Shown: in pieces, positions 2,300 to 41,388 of the stretch
Position numbering within the stretch: position 1 is the stretch's first letter
How the letters are laid out: each line of letters starts with the position of its first letter
Virus record (IMG/VR): IMGVR_UViG_3300032954_000506
Location: 1-41,388 of that record
From: a virus
Direction: 5' to 3' (one strand)
Length of the DNA stretch: 41,388 bases
Translations under genes and position numbers: made by a program
Notes under the pieces: model-generated
The model's input: the letters and a program-made list of their open reading frames with translations, nothing else
Told to the model about the DNA's origin: nothing
Databases searched by the model: none

Positions 2300-2458
2300 C
2301 CGCGCACCTCCGGCCGGCTTCCAACTGGCGATGATCAGCTCGCCAGTACTCTTCGTCGGCCGGCGCTGACCGCCGACCGTGTAGCGGATCCCGACGCGCC
2401 GCATTGGCAGCCCGGCGAACGCGCGCCGCATCTTTGCATTGCTGGGATGCAAATTCAT
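2297..2458 (-). CDS. Small basic early protein
   Basis: 53 residues (MNLHPSNAKMRRAFAGLPMR...IIASWKPAGGAR) starting at ATG 2458, which overlaps the stop codon of the preceding gene as ATGA. It is strongly basic with no membrane segment. Translational coupling to its neighbour is likely. Function unknown. Confidence 0.5.
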   Translation of the reverse strand: MNLHPSNAKMRRAFAGLPMRRVGIRYTVGGQRRPTKSTGELIIASWKPAGGAR

Positions 2459-2592
2459 GGCGCGGTACCGCCGCGCAGCGTGATCCAGACCGTGATGCAC
2501 GGCAGGACGTTGATGCACCAGCGGCGGTTGCGCCGCGACCAGTGCGCGCCGATCCATAGGGCGCCGGGCTGGAGGAGCACGCCTGCTGTCAT
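2455..2592 (-). CDS. Very small early protein with a hydrophobic core
   Basis: 45 residues from ATG 2592. The sequence begins MTAGVLLQPGALWIGAHWS, then RRNRRWCINVLPCITVWITL, and is rich in W, L and I. It resembles the tiny tryptophan-rich proteins found in Mu-like phage early regions, but that is a general impression. Its stop overlaps the next start (ATGA). The gene begins 26 bp after the 3' end of the tRNA-like element on the same strand, so both are probably in one transcript. Confidence 0.55.
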   Translation of the reverse strand: MTAGVLLQPGALWIGAHWSRRNRRWCINVLPCITVWITLRGGTAP

Positions 2593-2617
2593 TGCTCACA
2601 CCGGTGGAGCAGCAAGG

Positions 2618-2714
2618 AGGGCTGGGAAGGGTTCGAACCTTCATGACCGCCGCGCGGCGCCGCGCTGTTGCGATCCCGGTGCTGCCGGGCGTCTACCAAT
2701 TCCGCCACCAGCCC
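2618..2714 (-). tRNA. Class-II (leucine-type) tRNA-like element with an abnormal anticodon loop
   Basis: 97 nt on the minus strand. It has a perfect 7-bp acceptor stem (GGGCTGG/CCAGCCC), a leucine-type D arm (GGCGGAATTGGTAGACGC), a 5-bp T stem (GAAGG/CCTTC) and a standard T loop TTCGAAC. A long variable arm can be closed by GATCGC/GCGGTC with one G-U pair. The anticodon arm is odd. The best stem is CCGG/CCGG around the 5-nt loop CAGCA, or a 7-nt loop GCAGCAC lacking U33. CAG would be a Leu anticodon, but the loop is not canonical. No CCA is encoded. It is either a degenerating tRNA or a tRNA mimic kept for its acceptor/T domain. It lies in the gap between two early genes on the same strand. 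Confidence 0.65.
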
Positions 2715-2726
2715 ATGAGCCTTCAT

Positions 2727-2906
2727 TCAACCGCCCTGCTGGTCATGAACCAGCCCGCGCTTGCGGCATGCCGAGATCGCGTTGCCCCACGCACTGAGTG
2801 TCTCGCCGGTCGGGCTGACCAACGTGAAGCCATCCTGGACGCGCCAGCCGGCCGCCAGCAGCTCAGCGACCTTCTTCCAGCTGGTAATGCGACGCTCGTT
2901 GCTCAA
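2727..2906 (-). CDS. Small unknown early protein (TTG start)
   Basis: 59 residues from TTG at 2906, preceded by GGAAGGG as ribosome site and overlapping the upstream stop as TTGA. This coupling decides the start over longer upstream frames. The product (SNERRITSWKKVAELLAAGW, then FTLVSPTGETLSAWGNAISA) looks like a compact alpha/beta fold. There is no recognised family. It ends 12 bp before the tRNA-like element. Confidence 0.55.
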   Translation of the reverse strand: MSNERRITSWKKVAELLAAGWRVQDGFTLVSPTGETLSAWGNAISACRKRGLVHDQQGG

Positions 2907-3109
2907 GCGCCCTTCCGGTTCCTTGCAACACGGTTCGCCGAGAGGAAAAGATCGCCCGCTACAGTGAGCCAGAGCACCTGCTTGAGTGGTGCCTTGGTTG
3001 GTGGCAATACACCGGATAACCACAGAAAGCACGCCGCCGCGAGCGTCAGCAATGCACGGGCAAGACGGGTTGCGACGATGTCGACGAAGCGATCAGTGGA
3101 ATTGCTCAT
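2903..3109 (-). CDS. Small membrane protein
   Basis: 68 residues from ATG 3109 with a strong AGAGGAG ribosome site. One clear membrane segment spans about residues 18-35 (ARALLTLAAACFLWLSGVL), and a second weaker hydrophobic stretch lies near 45-58 (VLWLTVAGDLFLSA). Its start overlaps the upstream stop (ATGA) and its stop overlaps the next start (TTGA). In the early region, such proteins may act on the host envelope or superinfection, but this one has no identifiable function. Confidence 0.6.
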   Translation of the reverse strand: MSNSTDRFVDIVATRLARALLTLAAACFLWLSGVLPPTKAPLKQVLWLTVAGDLFLSANRVARNRKGA

Positions 3110-3327
3110 AGGCTCCTCTTGCATACTCCAAAGTGACAGGTGTGCCGCACGTAGTCGTATTCCTGGTCGGATACCTCCACCGTGTCGGCGTCGACCGCGA
3201 CGTTCTTTCCGGCCTGCGTCCTGAACCAGATGATTCTCGCGTTACAGCCACGCAGCTTGCAGCGCTTGATCCGGCGCTCGTGAGCCGCGGCCGCACCCTC
3301 ATCGTCCGCCAAGTGCTCGAAGCTCAT
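3106..3327 (-). CDS. Zinc-ribbon-type small phage protein
   Basis: 73 residues from ATG 3327 (ATGA overlap with the preceding gene). The second half has the pattern of a common small phage zinc-ribbon protein: CKLRGCNARIIWFRTQAGKN, then VAVDADTV, then HTCHFGVC. Two Cys near residues 23 and 28 and the HTCH/C cluster near 62-69 could bind one zinc. The basic patch RRIKRCK suggests nucleic-acid contact. The start MSFEHLADDEGAAAAHERR is acidic then charged. Role unknown; the assignment rests on motif memory. Confidence 0.6.
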   Translation of the reverse strand: MSFEHLADDEGAAAAHERRIKRCKLRGCNARIIWFRTQAGKNVAVDADTVEVSDQEYDYVRHTCHFGVCKRSL

Positions 3328-4049
3328 GGCTTCCGCACCTTCGCGACCACCTGCTTCTTCCGGCGCTCGCGCTGACGCGGCGCATAGACCGTGCGCCAGC
3401 GCTCGCGGTTCTGCTCGTAGTACCGGCGCTTCTCCGCGGCGATGCGGTCCTTGTTGGCCTCGCGGTACCGGCGCTGCTCCGCGGCGATGCGGTCCTTGTT
3501 GGCCTCGCGGTACCGGCGCTGCTCCGCGGCGATGCGGTCCTTGTTGGCCTCGTAGTACCGGCGCTGCTCCGCGGCGATGCGGTCCTTGTTGGCCTCGCGG
3601 TACCGGCGCTGCTCCGCGGCGATGCGGTCCTTGTTGGCCTCGCGGTACCGGCGCTTCTCCGCGGCGATGCGGTCCTTGTTGGCCTCGCGGTACCGGCGCT
3701 GCTCCGCGGCGATGCGGTCCTTGTTGGCCTCGTAGTACCGGCGCTTCTCCGCGGCGATGCGGTCCTTGTTGGCCTTCTCGACCTGCACGGCGATGGCCTT
3801 TCGATCGACGGGCAGCGACCCCAGGCGCGGGAGGTCTGGTCGAAGGTATCGGCCGAGGACGAGTTGGAGGGCGCCACGGCGCACGAGCGCCTGAAGCTGG
3901 ATATCGAGAATGGAGGGTTCCTGACCGCGGAGCGCGTTGCGAAGATCCCGTGCGGCAATGCCGCCTGGCGGAACCGCTCCGAGAATGAGCTTGGCGAGCT
4001 CGCCGCCGCCACCCACAACCCGGCGAACATCCTTGGCGACGGCGCTCAC
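3324..4049 (-). CDS. Winged-helix-like protein with eight 15-residue helical repeats
   Basis: 241 residues from GTG 4049 (GTGA overlap). Residues about 12-75 look like a helix-turn-helix/winged-helix domain (ELAKLILGAVPPGGIAARDL, LDIQLQALVRRGALQLVLGR). Residues about 93-212 are eight tandem copies of ANKDRIAAE(Q/K)RRY(R/Y)E, followed by a basic tail (RERWRTVYAPRQRERRKKQ). Each repeat is amphipathic and highly charged, and together they should form a long rigid helix. Proteins with similar YxEANKxRI repeats occur sporadically in phages and bacteria, sometimes with HNH nucleases, but no nuclease motif is present here. Inference: a DNA-binding head on a charged helical rod. Its stop overlaps the next ATG. 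Confidence 0.65.
   Translation of the reverse strand: MSAVAKDVRRVVGGGGELAKLILGAVPPGGIAARDLRNALRGQEPSILDIQLQALVRRGALQLVLGRYLRPDLPRLGSLPVDRKAIAVQVEKANKDRIAAEKRRYYEANKDRIAAEQRRYREANKDRIAAEKRRYREANKDRIAAEQRRYREANKDRIAAEQRRYYEANKDRIAAEQRRYREANKDRIAAEQRRYREANKDRIAAEKRRYYEQNRERWRTVYAPRQRERRKKQVVAKVRKP
3414..3773 (-). repeat. Eight tandem 45-bp coding repeats
   Basis: Exactly 360 bp consist of eight in-frame 45-bp units. They differ only at a Q/K codon (gctgct versus gcttct) and an R/Y codon (cgcggtacc versus cgtagtacc). The near-identity at synonymous positions points to recent expansion by slippage or recombination. Copy number is likely to vary between isolates. Confidence 0.9.
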
Positions 4050-4579: not shown

Positions 4580-4893
4580 GCGCGCGCATCCATCTCGACC
4601 TGCAGGGCGGCGATGCGCTCCTGCTGCTCGCGGCAGTGAGCCTGCAGGCGCTCGATCTCCCGAGCGTGGTAGGCAATGTTCCGCCGCCAGGCGTCAAGGT
4701 GGTGGACGAACCTCAGGGACTCGGTATCGCGCTCGCCCTTCAGCAGAATGATCGCCACGCGCGCCCGCTCTAGTGCATCTACCAGGAGCAGGTTCTTCAA
4801 GCCCAGCACGTCCGCGCCGCTGGTCGACTCGCGCCGAAGATCGTTCAGCAGCAGATCCAGCGCCTTGTCGGAGGTGGGCTTCTCCACGCTCAC
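4576..4893 (-). CDS. Unknown coiled-coil early protein
   Basis: 105 residues from GTG 4893 (GTGA overlap). An N-terminal helical part (TSDKALDLLLNDLRRESTSG) is followed by a long predicted coiled coil (about residues 60-104, NIAYHAREIERLQAHCREQQ). No enzymatic motif is seen. It lies between the Mor-like activator and the HTH gene, so all are co-expressed. Function not recognised. Confidence 0.5.
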   Translation of the reverse strand: MSVEKPTSDKALDLLLNDLRRESTSGADVLGLKNLLLVDALERARVAIILLKGERDTESLRFVHHLDAWRRNIAYHAREIERLQAHCREQQERIAALQVEMDARA

Positions 4894-5246
4894 GTGGCGT
4901 CCTCCTCAATGAACGAGATCTGCCGCAGGTGCGCGCCGCGCAGCTCCTTGCGCTGGCGGAGCTTGCGCACGGCCACCTCGGTCATGTTGTACCGCTTGGC
5001 GATCTCGTGGGGCGAGGCGCCCTCGGCGATCTCCTGCAGGATGCGGATATCGCGCTTGGCGATCCGATAGAAGAAATCAGTGGGGATCGTGATGATCTGG
5101 CCACCCCAATCCTGGGCAACCTCATCGGCCGCGGCCGCGCCGATCTGCTCGGCGATATCGGCGGCGACGCCGTGCGCGCGGGCGGCCTCGGCCACGGTGC
5201 GCGCGACGCCGGCGAGCAGCGCATTGCGGCGCGGGGACATCTTCAC
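4890..5246 (-). CDS. mor: Mor-family transcription activator (middle/late gene activator)
   Basis: About 116-118 residues. GTG 5246 has GGAG 8 nt upstream and a GTGA overlap with the preceding stop; ATG 5240 is the alternative. The C-terminal half matches the Mor/C family of Mu: a dimer part ending DWGGQIITIPTDFFYRIAKR, then DIRILQEIAEGASPHEIAKR and the HTH YNMTEVAVRKLRQR. In Mu, Mor and C bind short dyads upstream of middle and late promoters and recruit RNA polymerase. Here the obvious candidate targets are the identical palindromes at 17030-17049 and 25322-25337. Only one such gene is seen, so it may serve both roles. Confidence 0.75.
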   Translation of the reverse strand: MKMSPRRNALLAGVARTVAEAARAHGVAADIAEQIGAAAADEVAQDWGGQIITIPTDFFYRIAKRDIRILQEIAEGASPHEIAKRYNMTEVAVRKLRQRKELRGAHLRQISFIEEDAT

Positions 5247-5521
5247 GCGCGCAGCTCCAGCAGAGGCAGCTCGCGCAGCCACAGCAGCACATAGGGGGCG
5301 CTGTCCTGGCGCTCCACGCGCTCGATGGCGCGGGCAACCTGGTAGGCGGTCGTGGATACGCGGCGCAGGGTCTGCAGCTGCAGCACCAGCAGGTCGCGGT
5401 CGTGGTACCTGCAGCCCGCGCGCTCCGGCAAGGCTATGGCGCTCGCGCGCTGGTGCGCGACGGCCGAGAAGTTGTCCCAGCCGACCGGCACGATGTGCGT
5501 GCGAATCGCGCGCGTCATCAC
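5243..5521 (-). CDS. Unknown early protein
   Basis: 91-92 residues; starts at GTG 5521 (GTGA overlap) or the adjacent ATG 5518 (TGATG). The product is a well-balanced soluble sequence (IRTHIVPVGWDNFSAVAHQR, YQVARAIERVERQDSAPYVL) without membrane segments. It lies between the gp16-like and Mor-like genes and is co-translated with both. I do not recognise the family. Confidence 0.55.
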   Translation of the reverse strand: MMTRAIRTHIVPVGWDNFSAVAHQRASAIALPERAGCRYHDRDLLVLQLQTLRRVSTTAYQVARAIERVERQDSAPYVLLWLRELPLLELRA

Positions 5522-5940
5522 TGCACCTGGACGCCCGGCTCGCGCCGGCGGCGTCGCTGATCGATTGAGAGCGCGGCGACCAGCTTGCGCTGCTGGTCGT
5601 AGTCGCAGAACGCCACGCGATCCACGTGGAACATGCGCTGGGCGAGTGCATCGGCATATTCCCAGCCGCGGCCGGCGTCGGTGAGAAGCGCGCCGATCTT
5701 CTGGAGCAATGGACTGCCCTGCGCGTTGTGCGGGCGCGCCCGGCCGCGCGCACCGCGATCCTGAAAGCCGCGGGCCCGCAGGTGATCCAGCACCGCACGC
5801 CGGCCGGCGTCGTCCAGGTCCTTCGCGCTCGTCACACGCGCCACCGAGAACAGCATCGCGCGGTAGGTCTCGTCATCGAGACCGAGCTGCGTCTTGGCGA
5901 TGTGGATCCGCGCCAGCTGCGCGTTGCGGATGGCACTCAT
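5518..5940 (-). CDS. Mu gp16-like early protein (DUF1018)
   Basis: 140 residues from ATG 5940, which overlaps the stop of the preceding small membrane protein gene (ATGA). The N terminus has the family signature of Mu gp16/DUF1018: AQLARIHIAKTQLGLDDETY, RAMLFSVARVTSAKDLD, then LDHLRARGF. The C-terminal half continues LLQKIGALLTDAGRGWEYAD and WHVDRV-like sequence, ending in a basic tail. The gp16 family is conserved in Mu-like early regions but its biochemical role is unknown. Confidence 0.8.
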   Translation of the reverse strand: MSAIRNAQLARIHIAKTQLGLDDETYRAMLFSVARVTSAKDLDDAGRRAVLDHLRARGFQDRGARGRARPHNAQGSPLLQKIGALLTDAGRGWEYADALAQRMFHVDRVAFCDYDQQRKLVAALSIDQRRRRREPGVQVQ

Positions 5941-7510: not shown

Positions 7511-8776
7511 TCAGATCCCCCGCACCACGTCGGCCGACACCTGGGGCAGCTGCACCTCGGCCGCGCGGTTCATCGCGGCGGTGAGCGCGTTGGCGATCGC
7601 CAGCGGGTACAGCAGCGTGCCGGTCGCGCGCGTTGGGGTGAGCTTCTCGCGCAGCGCATCGATGGCGCCGGCGTGCACGACCTTCTCCAGCGGCACGCCG
7701 GCGCGCGCAAAGCGGTGCTTGAGATAGGCGCCCAGGTCCGTGCTCAACGCCGGCAGCGTCACGATCTCGATGCGCTGCACGACCTCGCGTACCTCCGGGT
7801 TGTGCTCGGAGAGGATCTGCAGCAGCTCGGGCTGCCCCAGCAGGATGATCGACAGCAGGCGCTTTAAGCCCGAGCGCAGCTCCAGGAAGCGTTTCAGGTG
7901 CTTCAGCGTCTGGCGGGGCATGCAGTGGGCCTCCTCCACGATTACCACGTGGCTGTGGCCAGCGCGGGCGCTGTTCTTCAGGCTCTCGTGCAGCTGGTGG
8001 AAGCGCGCATTGGGGCTGGAGCGGATGGTGGCGAGCGGATCGATCGCGGCCATCATGGCCTCGGCGATGTGCGTCGCGCGCAGGGTTTTGCCGACCTTGT
8101 CCTGGGCCTCCATCGCGAGCACGTAGGGCTCGATCACGATGATCGACTGCGCCTCGCGCTCGATGCGGTCCAGCAGCTCCATGCGCAGCGTCGACTTGCC
8201 GGCCCCGCTCTCCCCGATGACGCCCATGAACCCGCCGTGGCGGGCCACCTGGTACATCGACTCGCGCACATAGCGCAGCTCGCTGTTGAGGTAGACATCC
8301 TCCTGGGTCGCTGGGTCCTCGAACGGATCCCGCGGCAGCTGGAAGTGCTGCCGGGTGGCTGGCGAAAGGGTCTGCTTGCGCAGTAGCATGGCGTCGTCCT
8401 CGACTGTGGTTGGCGTTGGGGCGATGGCCCTCGCGGCGTTCGCGCGCTGCGGGGGCTTTTTCTTGGCGAGGTCGGCGGCGGCGAGCGCGAGCTCGTGCAG
8501 CGCACGCCGTGTCTTGTGGCTGGCATGCGGCGCCGCGTGAATTGCGACCGCGGGCGCTCGGTCGGTGGCGAAGAGTCCCGTGTGGCTTCCGCCGGCGGCC
8601 TTCACGGCCGCCATGATGCGAGCGCGCAGCGCCGCGCGATCCACCCGCGGCGGCCAGTGGCCGTGGTTCACCAGCTTGTTGAGCGCGTCGCGCGGGATCT
8701 TGGCCGCGGCGGCCATCACGCCCTGGGTGATGCCACAGGACTCCATGACGCGCTTCAGGCGCAGCGGCGCGCTCAC
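7511..8776 (-). CDS. MuB-like AAA+ target-selection ATPase (ExeA/TniB type)
   Basis: 421 residues from GTG 8776, overlapping the transposase stop (GTGA). The N-terminal about 65 residues look like an HTH (LKRVMESCGITQGVMAAAAK), followed by a flexible linker. The ATPase core has Walker A GESGAGKST (188-196), Walker B HVVIVEEAH (276-284) and a downstream LGQPEL sensor-type motif. The arrangement matches ExeA/TniB-like ATPases that serve as MuB in BcepMu-type phages. The protein should bind DNA with ATP, choose target sites and activate the transposase. The pairing with a DDE transposase in one coupled unit makes the call firm. Confidence 0.85.
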   Translation of the reverse strand: MSAPLRLKRVMESCGITQGVMAAAAKIPRDALNKLVNHGHWPPRVDRAALRARIMAAVKAAGGSHTGLFATDRAPAVAIHAAPHASHKTRRALHELALAAADLAKKKPPQRANAARAIAPTPTTVEDDAMLLRKQTLSPATRQHFQLPRDPFEDPATQEDVYLNSELRYVRESMYQVARHGGFMGVIGESGAGKSTLRMELLDRIEREAQSIIVIEPYVLAMEAQDKVGKTLRATHIAEAMMAAIDPLATIRSSPNARFHQLHESLKNSARAGHSHVVIVEEAHCMPRQTLKHLKRFLELRSGLKRLLSIILLGQPELLQILSEHNPEVREVVQRIEIVTLPALSTDLGAYLKHRFARAGVPLEKVVHAGAIDALREKLTPTRATGTLLYPLAIANALTAAMNRAAEVQLPQVSADVVRGI

Positions 8777-10605
8777 TGGCCACCGCCTACCGCCCGCAGG
8801 CGGTTGCCCTGGTAGAGCTGCTCGCACCAGGCGTCGAGCGCATCGTAGGGCACCCCGTCGGGGAACTGTGCCTGCGTCGCCTGCATCATCGCGGCGGTCC
8901 AGGCGATGCCACGCGCGGCCAGGCGCGGCCGCAGCGCATTGGCGGCCTCGAAATGCGAGTACGGGGCAAACTCGCGAGCCGTGGCGCCCTGCAGCTGCGG
9001 CTCAATGCGGCGCGCTGCCATGACCGTGGCCGGCGCCTGCACGTCGGACTGCGTGCCGGCGCGCGGCAGGTGCGGCGCGGGCGGCGCATCGGTCAGGTGC
9101 TTCAACGGGTCGATGCGGCCACCGAACGGCAGCTTCTTCGCCTTGCGCGCCGCGCGAACCTCGGCGTCGGTCGCTACCTCCATCGCCACCCGGTCGAGCT
9201 CCTTGCGCGCCGCGTCGGCGGGGGTCTCGGGCGGCGACCGGAACGTCTCGCCGATCACCGCCGCGGTGTCCAGGAAGCCATACTCGTTACGCGGGATGCG
9301 TGGGGCGATGTAGTGCAGCGGCTCGCCGTGCACCTCGCCAGGCATCAGCACCCGGACGCTGCCGACCGGGTCGAGCGCGTTGACCAACGCCTCCACCGTC
9401 GCGCCGTTGATCAGGCCAGGCACGCCACGCACGTCGTAGTACTCGTTGCGCAGCCGGATCATGCAATCGCGGACCTTGCACGGGATCGGCTTGGAGTTGG
9501 GCAGCTGACGCAGCACCTCGATGGGCGGGGCCAGGAGCAGCTCCTGCGGCGTGATGCGCAGCCAGCCATCGCGGCGCTTCATGCCGGTGCGCGTGTGCAC
9601 CTCGGTCGCGTTGTAGCTGTAGGTCCACTTCTGGGCGTGCCGGTTGATCTCCTCGACGCAGCTGACGGGGTCCGTCAGCTTCAGCACCGCCTCGAAGTGG
9701 ATCTCCACCAGGTGATGGGACTTCTCCACCTGGCCGGTCGCGCGCGGGTTGCCGGCGGCGTGAGTGATGCGCTGGATGCCGAGCGTGCGGCAGAAGTTGT
9801 CCACCGCAATGGCATTGCTCGCGCTGCCCGGGTCGGCCATCAGGATGCGCGGAATGCCGTGCATGGTGCCGCCTGGCCGCTGCGTCATGGCGTGGATCAG
9901 CGCCGTGAGCAGGTTCGAGGCGCTCTCTGCACCCAGCACATAGAACAGCTCGATGCAGCCGCTCGCGTGATCGGTGATCACGTAGCGCCACAGGCGCCGG
10001 TCCGAGATTCGGGCGAAGTTACGTGGTTTGCCGCGGTAGAACTCCGACTGCGGCATGGGCCGCGTCCCGTCTTCGGCGAGGTAGAACTGCCGGCTGATCG
10101 AGGCATCGATCTGCCACACGTGATTGGGATGCCGGCTCGCCATGCGCGCCGCGGGCGACGCGACAGCAAGTTGCGCCTGGTGCATGTAGTGCTGGCGCAG
10201 CGCGCGGCGCACCGTGGAGGCGTGCGCGGCCCTCACCTCGCCGGTGCCGCGATCGATGCTCGCGGCCTGGAAGATTCCGTTGGCGCGCCCGACGCGCAGT
10301 GCATCGTCCAGCGGCAGCGTGCCGCTGCCGGTTTGTCGGCGCGTTTCCTCGATCATCGAGGAGATGCGCGTCAGGTCCTCCCGCGCGATGCTGGTGGTCC
10401 CTGCATCGCGGCGGCGCCGACGCGGCCGCAGCGCGCTCGTCAGCGCCTGCAACTGGCGATAGGCAGACTGCACGGAGATGCCCAACTCCGCGGCCAGGCG
10501 CGCGACGATTGCCCCGCGCGTGCCGCGACCGGCGTGCTTGAGCGCATCGGCCGCGGCCAGGATCCGCGGATCTGGTTGGCCGGCTGCGGACATGTCAGCC
10601 GTCAC
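8773..10605 (-). CDS. DDE transposase (MuA-like)
   Basis: 610 residues from GTG 10605; ATG 10593 is an alternative that removes four residues. An N-terminal HTH (GAIVARLAAELGISVQSAYR) precedes an rve-type catalytic core: D167 in VWQIDAS, D258 in LMADPGSAS, and E294 in GQVEKSHH, giving a D-D-35-E arrangement (numbered from the GTG). A C-terminal beta-barrel-like region (IRLRNEYYDVRGVPGLINGA) follows, as in Mu/Tn552-family transposases. It should bind the end sites at 1538-1572 and 39756-39789, cut and join them to target DNA for integration and replicative transposition. It is the fifth gene of the leftward operon. Confidence 0.9.
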   Translation of the reverse strand: MTADMSAAGQPDPRILAAADALKHAGRGTRGAIVARLAAELGISVQSAYRQLQALTSALRPRRRRRDAGTTSIAREDLTRISSMIEETRRQTGSGTLPLDDALRVGRANGIFQAASIDRGTGEVRAAHASTVRRALRQHYMHQAQLAVASPAARMASRHPNHVWQIDASISRQFYLAEDGTRPMPQSEFYRGKPRNFARISDRRLWRYVITDHASGCIELFYVLGAESASNLLTALIHAMTQRPGGTMHGIPRILMADPGSASNAIAVDNFCRTLGIQRITHAAGNPRATGQVEKSHHLVEIHFEAVLKLTDPVSCVEEINRHAQKWTYSYNATEVHTRTGMKRRDGWLRITPQELLLAPPIEVLRQLPNSKPIPCKVRDCMIRLRNEYYDVRGVPGLINGATVEALVNALDPVGSVRVLMPGEVHGEPLHYIAPRIPRNEYGFLDTAAVIGETFRSPPETPADAARKELDRVAMEVATDAEVRAARKAKKLPFGGRIDPLKHLTDAPPAPHLPRAGTQSDVQAPATVMAARRIEPQLQGATAREFAPYSHFEAANALRPRLAARGIAWTAAMMQATQAQFPDGVPYDALDAWCEQLYQGNRLRAVGGGQ

Positions 10606-39826: not shown

Positions 39827-41388
39827 TTACCGGCTGACCTGGAGGCTGGTTCCACCACCAGGGCCGCCGCCAATGGGGCCGCGGGCACCGTTACCGTTGG
39901 AGACCACCTTCACCCACAGCGCGTCCTTGTCCTTGAAGTAGGACGTGTCACTGGCCTTGCGCAATGCATCCAGGCTGTCCTGCTGCGCACCTGAGGCCGC
40001 GGTGTTGAATCCCGGCAGCTGGAAGATCACCCACGAGCCGGCATCCATTTCCGTCAGCGTAAGGTTCAGGGAAGGCCTTTCGGTGGTGACCTTGATCTCG
40101 GTACCGGCTCGTACGTTGCCCGAGGTGAAGCTGTAGTCCCTGCCATTGCGGCTGAGCACGACTGGCGGCTGGGCAGGAGGTCGGCCGCCGCCGAGTCCGC
40201 CACCGGGAGCGGCCGGTGCACCAGGACCCGAAGCAGCCGGGCCTGCGCCGGCACCCAGACCTGGAATAGCACCTGTGGCTCTGGGAGCACCCGGGCCAGC
40301 ACCAGCACCAGCACCAGCACCGGCACCTGGGCCACCACAACCTGCACCAGAGCAGGGACCACCGCCACCGGCCCGCGGAGGGCCACCGCCGCCAAAACTC
40401 AGGCGTCCGATATCGCCCTTGCACACTGCGGCGTTCCAGTCGGTCTTGATCTCACAGGCCTGTGTATCGGTTGCGATCTGGTCGTTGGGGCCGTCGTTGA
40501 GGAGAATATAGGAATTGGGTACGCCACTGACGGAACCATCCTTGTCGTGGATGGCCGCGGCCTTCCAGGCCACGCCGTTCAGGTTGTCGTTGCCCCACTT
40601 GCGCTCCATCGGCGGGAAGTACACCGGCTTGGCGTTGACGAATTTCGCGCCCTCGATGGAGTTTTCGGTACTGACGCCGGCGCTGGTGTACATCAGGTAG
40701 GAGAGCGCTCCGGTCTTGCGGGTGGCGTTGTCCTGGAAATTCACGAACGTGTCGTTCACCACGTCATGGCGGTAATCGTAGTACTCGTAGCCGCGGATCG
40801 GGAAATCCGGCATTGAGGGTTTCGGCAGGCTGCGGCCGTAGGCCTTCTCCGCGTCAGTCCTGGGATTGCCGATGTTCTCGGTCTCGCCCACGAACAGCGA
40901 GTCGATCACCTTGGACGTGAAGGGGTCACGACCGGCCGAGCCGGAGGCATGCGTGTAGCCCATGGCATTGTCGGCCACCTTCACGTTCCTGAAGACGTGC
41001 ATCTCACCGCGGCCCCAGATGCCGCCATTGCGGTTCTTGTAGGAGGTGAGATCCTCGAAGTGCGTTTCCACCGTTCTGCTGTTCGGGTCGGCCGGATTTT
41101 CCTTGGGCATGTGGGCGTTGCCGGTAACACCGAAAGTGTTGTTGGGATTGGTGTTCCGGTCGAACATGAAACCATCGTAGTTCGAGTGCGCGACATTGCC
41201 CCTGAACTCGCGGAACGGCGTGCGGCGCGGCCAGGTGTTCTTGCTGATGTCGGTGTCCGCGAACGCACCATTCGGGTGCTCCGGCAGCGACATCCAGAAG
41301 CCGTTCGAGTCGGAACCCGCCGCGACATTATCCACGTAGCTGTTGTCCGGGTTGGTGATCCAGAAGGACGACACCGTGTTGTCCGAGG
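39827..41388 (-). CDS. G8-family beta-helix exoprotein, C-terminal 519 residues (starts beyond right edge)
   Basis: Reading frame is open from 41386 to the TAA at 39827. The first about 340 residues fit the right-handed beta-helix of the CEMIP/TMEM2/PKHD1L1 type: SSFWITNPDNSYVDNVAAGS, DSNGFWMSLPEHPNGAF, NVAHSNYDGFMFD, then SYKNRNGGIWGRGEMHVFRN. Next comes a low-complexity Gly/Pro/Ala linker (about residues 345-410, with GAGAGAGAGAGPGAP) and a C-terminal domain (VVLSRNGRDYSFTSGNVRAG, LTLTEMDAGSWVIFQLPGFN). Probably secreted, acting on an extracellular polysaccharide. Its natural terminator is now 38 kb away, beyond the prophage. Confidence 0.75.
   Translation of the reverse strand, partial: SDNTVSSFWITNPDNSYVDNVAAGSDSNGFWMSLPEHPNGAFADTDISKNTWPRRTPFREFRGNVAHSNYDGFMFDRNTNPNNTFGVTGNAHMPKENPADPNSRTVETHFEDLTSYKNRNGGIWGRGEMHVFRNVKVADNAMGYTHASGSAGRDPFTSKVIDSLFVGETENIGNPRTDAEKAYGRSLPKPSMPDFPIRGYEYYDYRHDVVNDTFVNFQDNATRKTGALSYLMYTSAGVSTENSIEGAKFVNAKPVYFPPMERKWGNDNLNGVAWKAAAIHDKDGSVSGVPNSYILLNDGPNDQIATDTQACEIKTDWNAAVCKGDIGRLSFGGGGPPRAGGGGPCSGAGCGGPGAGAGAGAGAGPGAPRATGAIPGLGAGAGPAASGPGAPAAPGGGLGGGRPPAQPPVVLSRNGRDYSFTSGNVRAGTEIKVTTERPSLNLTLTEMDAGSWVIFQLPGFNTAASGAQQDSLDALRKASDTSYFKDKDALWVKVVSNGNGARGPIGGGPGGGTSLQVSR

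Follow-up and report, generated by a model that had tools for sequence, protein, structure and literature searches.

The window, which is the whole 41,388-base virus record analysed here, carries a tRNA-like element that seems unable to decode. This raises the question of whether the element is an RNA with a role outside translation or a tRNA gene that was broken. An earlier note, made by reading the sequence, had placed the element at positions 2618-2714, with preserved acceptor, D and T arms and an abnormal anticodon arm.

Anatomy of the element

The coordinates 2618-2714 were right, and the strand is minus (2714 down to 2618). Infernal scoring, which the note had proposed as a check, gave 35.0 bits (E 4.8e-5) with RF00005, above the gathering score of 29; this means that the tRNA-like element is real. 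It reads, from 2714 to 2618, GGGCTGG TG GCGGAATTGGTAGACGC CCGGCAGCACCGGGATCGCAACAGCGCGGCGCCGCGCGGCGGTCAT GAAGG TTCGAAC CCTTC CCAGCCC T, and consists of the following parts.

2618..2714, minus strand: tRNA-Leu-like element with no decoding anticodon arm, 97 nt (Infernal, ARAGORN)
2708..2714, minus strand: acceptor 5' strand GGGCUGG, pairing 7/7 with 2619-2625
2689..2707, minus strand: UG and Leu-type D arm, GCGGAAUUGGUAGACGC; the 19 nt are identical in 98 of 104 elements of the class described below and in the ordinary tRNA-Leu of locus L500
2676..2688, minus strand: replacement of the anticodon arm, CCGG-CAGCA-CCGG, with 4 bp, a 5-nt loop and no U33 (from the fold)
2645..2675, minus strand: long arm GAUCGC...GCGGUC of about 31 nt in the variable region (from the fold), at the position of class helix S2
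2626..2642, minus strand: T arm GAAGG-UUCGAAC-CCUUC, stem 5/5 (Infernal match and fold)
2618..2625, minus strand: acceptor 3' strand CCAGCCC and U73; CCA is not encoded (UCCU)

As the note had described, the acceptor, the T arm and the D arm are all intact, and the anticodon arm is indeed abnormal; the D arm is of the Leu type (UGGCGGAAUUGGUAGACGC). When compared with canonical tRNA-Leu, the 7-bp acceptor, the D arm and the T arm are all present; an anticodon arm of the 5-bp/7-nt form, with U33 and an anticodon for Leu, was found neither by ARAGORN, whose output was tRNA-???, nor in the fold, and the A73 discriminator is absent, U73 being in its place. The middle between the D and T arms is 46 nt long; in the ordinary Leu tRNAs of the loci compared, it is mostly 31-36 nt. 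Judged from its sequence, the element has a class II tRNA-Leu body.

A D arm and a T arm at this spacing have a single occurrence in the window, and 100 shuffles gave none. The folding energy of the element was not better than that of shuffles (z 0.25), as expected at its GC content. Therefore, the evidence for the element is its homology to tRNA and not its stability. A tmRNA identity was rejected, RF00005 being the sole Rfam match above the cut-off.

Genome context

The minus strand of the window encodes Gam, GemA, Mor and transposase A, with a large B-like ORF downstream of the transposase, and the plus strand encodes the terminase, portal, head and tail genes. The phage is of the B3/Mu-like type; its leftward early region has, distally, an accessory block that contains the element. 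The early-operon location claimed in the note was nearly correct: the element points the same way as the leftward genes A, B, Gam, GemA and Mor, but it is downstream of Mor. The nearest named phages are the Stenotrophomonas phages phiSHP3 and vB_SmaS_Bhz63 (54% transposase identity). Their genomes end directly past Mor, and the window phage has beyond Mor a block of small genes without relatives. The relevant features are listed below.

8773..10605, minus strand: transposase A (PHROG 310, 3.3e-84; 54% to phiSHP3)
4890..5798, minus strand: Mor-like late activator ORF (Pfam Mor, 4e-17), with the Mor domain in its C-terminal part
2727..3032, minus strand: upstream ORF of no known family
2589..2726, minus strand: 45-codon ORF read through the element, which starts at the upstream stop and ends in an ATGA overlap; no Pfam match
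2455..2592, minus strand: downstream gene MTAGVLLQPGALWIGAHWS..., a conserved small phage protein of 45 aa with relatives in 25 viral contigs

The element fills the 134-nt gap between the ORF ending at 2727 and the 45-aa phage gene at 2592-2455. The first 2000 or so bases of the window may be flanking host DNA of a prophage. For the element itself, a host-flank origin was rejected, since its immediate downstream neighbour is a member of a phage gene family. Among the relatives of this gene in 25 viral contigs, none has a tRNA upstream. The protein (2455-2592, minus strand) conserves GxLWIGAHWSxxNRRxCINxxPCVTxWI across these contigs and has no Pfam match.

Three other minus-strand ORFs of the window should be mentioned. 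That at 597-1454 encodes a BON-domain protein whose N-terminus is signal-like and which lacks relatives in the related phage contigs. The small protein at 3299-4030 contains a repeated segment (gcggtccttgttggcctcgcggtaccggcgctgctccgcggcgat repeated) and has no family match, and the ORF at 39827-41374, opposed to the tail genes, gives a CEMIP beta-helix match (3.3e-22).

Relatives of the window element

No orthologue was found in about 130 related contigs scanned. ARAGORN gave no comparable element in 80 transposase relatives, and tRNA searches of the terminase relatives gave other tRNAs or weak or spurious calls, with no comparable element. The middle had no relative in any viral contig matched by the scans, and plasmids gave weak GC-rich matches only.

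One viral contig, L500, was found with the acceptor and D arm of the window element. It carries an ordinary tRNA-Leu(CAA), which has the same acceptor (GGGCUGG/CCAGCCC), D arm and T-arm architecture. However, this tRNA has a normal anticodon arm, a variable arm of about 14 nt and A73, none of which is found in the window element. Between the two T stems, both sides of pair 51-63 are changed, so that pairing is compensated.

A class of Leu-bodied elements

Similar elements were sought with a pattern of a Leu D arm, a long middle and GGTTCGA, with nothing else required. The pattern matched at least 120 viral contigs, compared with 65 matches in 257 Gb of cellular genomes; the latter were mostly ordinary Leu tRNAs or a chance second T-arm motif, and the anticodon-less elements in cellular genomes were mainly from Bacteroidota. 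Among the 122 unselected viral matches listed, 113 paired in at least 6/7 acceptor positions and at least 4/5 T-stem positions, and an ordinary anticodon arm was present in only 11 of the 113. In 58 of the 122 listed, the acceptor was not AGTCAGG and there was no anticodon arm. Pairing of the acceptor was 7/7 in 49 of these 58, with 37 different sequences, at a chance of about 0.1% each. A second scan with AGTCAGG, the most frequent acceptor, gave 124 elements with middles of 31-59 nt, of which none had a standard Leu anticodon arm (four passed a loose arm test, none Leu-like).

In total, the pattern scans gave at least 175 distinct Leu-bodied anticodon-less elements, mostly from IMG/VR contigs. 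This tally of about 175 comes from loci of viral and genome collections, after removal of obvious tRNA duplications and insertions. A73 is found in 142, C74 in 163 and U73 in 8; CCA is encoded in only 11, and the middle ends in CAT in 58 of 175. The median length of the middle is 51 nt (range about 31-61 nt), U is at position -1 in 76 of 104 elements, and the elements are co-oriented with their nearest neighbours in about 72% of cases.

Most members are in low-GC phages, and chromosomal members are mostly in Bacteroidota. In 395 genomes of this phylum, the pattern matches were almost all ordinary tRNA-Leu(UAA); one element in a prophage and three variants with a long hairpin were the exceptions. 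Members in prophages of Sphingobacterium and Bacteroides, with Bacteroides congonensis among the carriers, are, like the window element, close to early genes (ERF, antirepressor), and also to PDDEXK-nuclease genes. Unannotated class-like elements outside Bacteroidota were found in two named phages, Sulfitobacter phage phiCB2047-B, where the acceptor pairs only 5/7 by eye, and Leuconostoc phage phiLM33_01. BLAST of a class element or the consensus against annotated phages gave short tRNA pieces only and, with BLAST of the window element, led to L514 and L516.

Several other unusual RNAs were observed in the loci. In the viral tRNA-Leu(UAA) of L201 and L297, about 20 nt are inserted into the anticodon loop and might be a very small intron. 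In L335/L477, L480 and L481, a very long hairpin replaces the anticodon arm of a Leu-type body; these elements come from Chlorobaculum (L335) and from two more genomes in the phylum sample. L318, L321, L332, L352, L355, L360 and L363, mostly from gammaproteobacterial MAGs, are Leu-bodied long-variable-arm tRNAs with A73-CCA and non-Leu anticodons (GGA, GGC, CGC, CCC, TGG), and might be mistranslating tRNAs. The viral long-variable-arm tRNAs of L208, L211, L232, L233 and L299 have the acceptor TCTGGGG and G73-CCA, with an apparent Asn (GTT) anticodon in most. Furthermore, two contigs with anticodon-less elements encode a phage tmRNA, permuted in L225 (1518-1779) and ordinary in L401 (1051-1405).

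The window element has the anatomy of the class: a Leu-type D arm, paired acceptor and T stems, a 46-nt middle and no standard anticodon arm. It is typical in middle length, CAT end, C74, U at -1, orientation and phage setting, and is an outlier in being GC-rich, in having U73 and in having no orthologue. A possible pseudoknot (CGGC/GCCG with GATCGC/GCGGTC) gave z 0.5 and the nested fold z 0.7, neither better than shuffles, and the two drawings had equal scores. The element is likely a member of the class; that it is a member with a function is only a little better supported than the opposite.

A recently captured phage tRNA-Leu might also have lost its anticodon arm in one deletion or insertion, leaving a non-functional gene whose other parts have not yet decayed. 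The lack of an orthologue, the chance-level folding of the middle and the ordinary tRNA-Leu with identical acceptor in the phage of L500 are all in keeping with such an event, and Leu tRNAs scrambled through duplication or palindrome insertion do exist (L324, L366, L377). However, all 12 acceptor and T-stem pairs and the entire D arm are intact, the length, CAT end and C74 are those of the class, and the T-stem difference from L500 is compensated. A broken tRNA is considered a real but lesser possibility.

Structure and modularity of the class middle

In many class elements, the anticodon region has an enlarged loop that makes a pseudoknot by pairing with the variable region. The mean z of the pseudoknot drawings was 1.3, compared with 0.6 for the nested ones, which means that the pseudoknot is not visible in every member. 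A short anticodon-loop intron, as might be present in L201 and L297, was rejected for the class, in which the loop is paired with the variable region.

Compensatory stem changes, which the note had asked for among relatives, were found in two families of other class members. In L258/L305/L453, the acceptor, D, S0, S1, pseudoknot S2 and T helices pair in 100% of cells, and both partners differ in 11 pairs, of which four are in the middle (shuffled mean 3.7; 0 of 500). In L220/L286/L292/L295, 97.9% of cells are paired and seven pairs are changed on both sides (0 of 500 shuffles). These alignments contain three and four sequences, respectively, and the structures were drawn from those same sequences; the signal was lost when the partners were slid. 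In both families, the changes are in the acceptor and in the pseudoknot at the position of the anticodon arm. The compensating mutations indicate, at the level of sequence comparison, that selection acts on the RNA and that the odd shape of the class is maintained rather than decaying; this conclusion is well supported. The view of the note that the outer fold was kept and decoding lost by something other than random decay thus holds well for the class, and extends to the window element by inference.

In addition, the middles seem to be exchanged as modules. Middles of 83-100% identity were found in flanks without detectable similarity; those of L248/L308 and of L252/L421 are 100% identical within unrelated flanking DNA. 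L220 and L436 share a common middle with different acceptors, and several phages have two or three elements each, with different middles. One class middle was sought outside the tRNA frame and was absent from 201 genomes.

The modularity bears on pure operon punctuation, in which RNase P and RNase Z would use the element as a cleavage cassette and the released RNA would have no role. These enzymes recognise mainly the acceptor and T arm, both of which are kept, and the U at -1, C74 and the co-orientation in about 72% are as such a cassette would have them. The conservation of middles across unrelated flanks and the covarying pseudoknot pairs are left unexplained, and we regard pure punctuation as improbable.

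It is more doubtful still that the tRNA sequence became part of a small protein gene, the 45-codon ORF at 2726-2589, translationally coupled to both neighbours. The frame is open from right after the upstream stop to the ATGA overlap with the next ATG; however, such a length is fairly often expected when GC is 67%, coupling in this frame has a one-in-three chance, the ORF has no family match, its final residues may be a remnant of the interrupted neighbour, and selection in the class acts on RNA pairing.

Proposed function

The reading that we lean towards, by a small measure, is that the window element is a non-decoding tRNA-shaped RNA, in which the Leu-type body was kept and the anticodon and variable arms were replaced by another RNA module. 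The element would be co-transcribed with the leftward early or left-end genes and excised by RNase P at the 5' end and RNase Z at the 3' end; these cuts would also part the two flanking genes. The freed RNA would have no decoding ability. The conserved and shuffled pseudoknotted middles suggest that, in the class, the tRNA body serves as a stable, processable scaffold, from which the middle might be shown to an RNA- or tRNA-binding partner, possibly a host defence factor. The released RNA would then act in trans as a scaffold or decoy. Since the conservation of the middles does not depend on what surrounds them, this reading is preferred over pure punctuation.

Bacterial LeuRS does not require the anticodon and does require A73. 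Leucine charging of the window element, for which the note had proposed a test, is therefore unlikely in view of U73, whereas A73 is found in 142 of 175 class elements. Least probable of all is thus a leucylated non-decoding tRNA serving as a substrate or sink for leucine or Leu-tRNA users, in spite of the Leu-type D loop, the A73 of most of the class and the independence of LeuRS from the anticodon.

In the wider reading, whose chances we consider evenly balanced, phages of several bacterial phyla carry modular Leu-tRNA-bodied RNAs with interchangeable, often pseudoknotted middles. In such RNAs, the body would provide a scaffold and a handle for processing, the middles would work as decoys or as regulators, and the window element would be a GC-rich example from a transposable phage.

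Comparison with known systems

No description of the class was found in the literature searched, preprints and most subscription journals being outside its scope; anticodon-less Leu-bodied phage RNAs are apparently an undescribed class. Annotation tools for tRNA either overlook such elements or call them undetermined or pseudo-tRNA. Should the class be functional, a tRNA has time and again been made by phages into a non-translational RNA platform with exchangeable modules. This would be a new kind of phage non-coding RNA, likely with counter-host roles, and a caution against taking each phage "tRNA" for a decoding aid.

The tRNAOther of Bacillus cereus is a pseudo-tRNA with a role outside translation (PMC3399842). 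It resembles the class in being tRNA-like, non-translational and part of a larger transcript, but it bears an anticodon for Trp and is encoded by one chromosomal gene (PMC3399842), whereas the class has no anticodon arm, is phage-borne and is modular. The pseudo-ToxI of phage PhiTE is a phage RNA mimic of a pseudoknot antitoxin (PMC5449768). As a phage-encoded small RNA that can mimic a pseudoknot of the type III antitoxin kind, it offers an analogy in the way of working only; unlike the class, it has no tRNA frame.

At the class level, the tRNA-like domain of tmRNA (RF00023) is similar in that pseudoknot structure replaces the anticodon arm of a tRNA body. However, the class has no reading frame, has a D stem, and is Leu-type and not Ala-type, and Rfam places the window element in tRNA and not in tmRNA.
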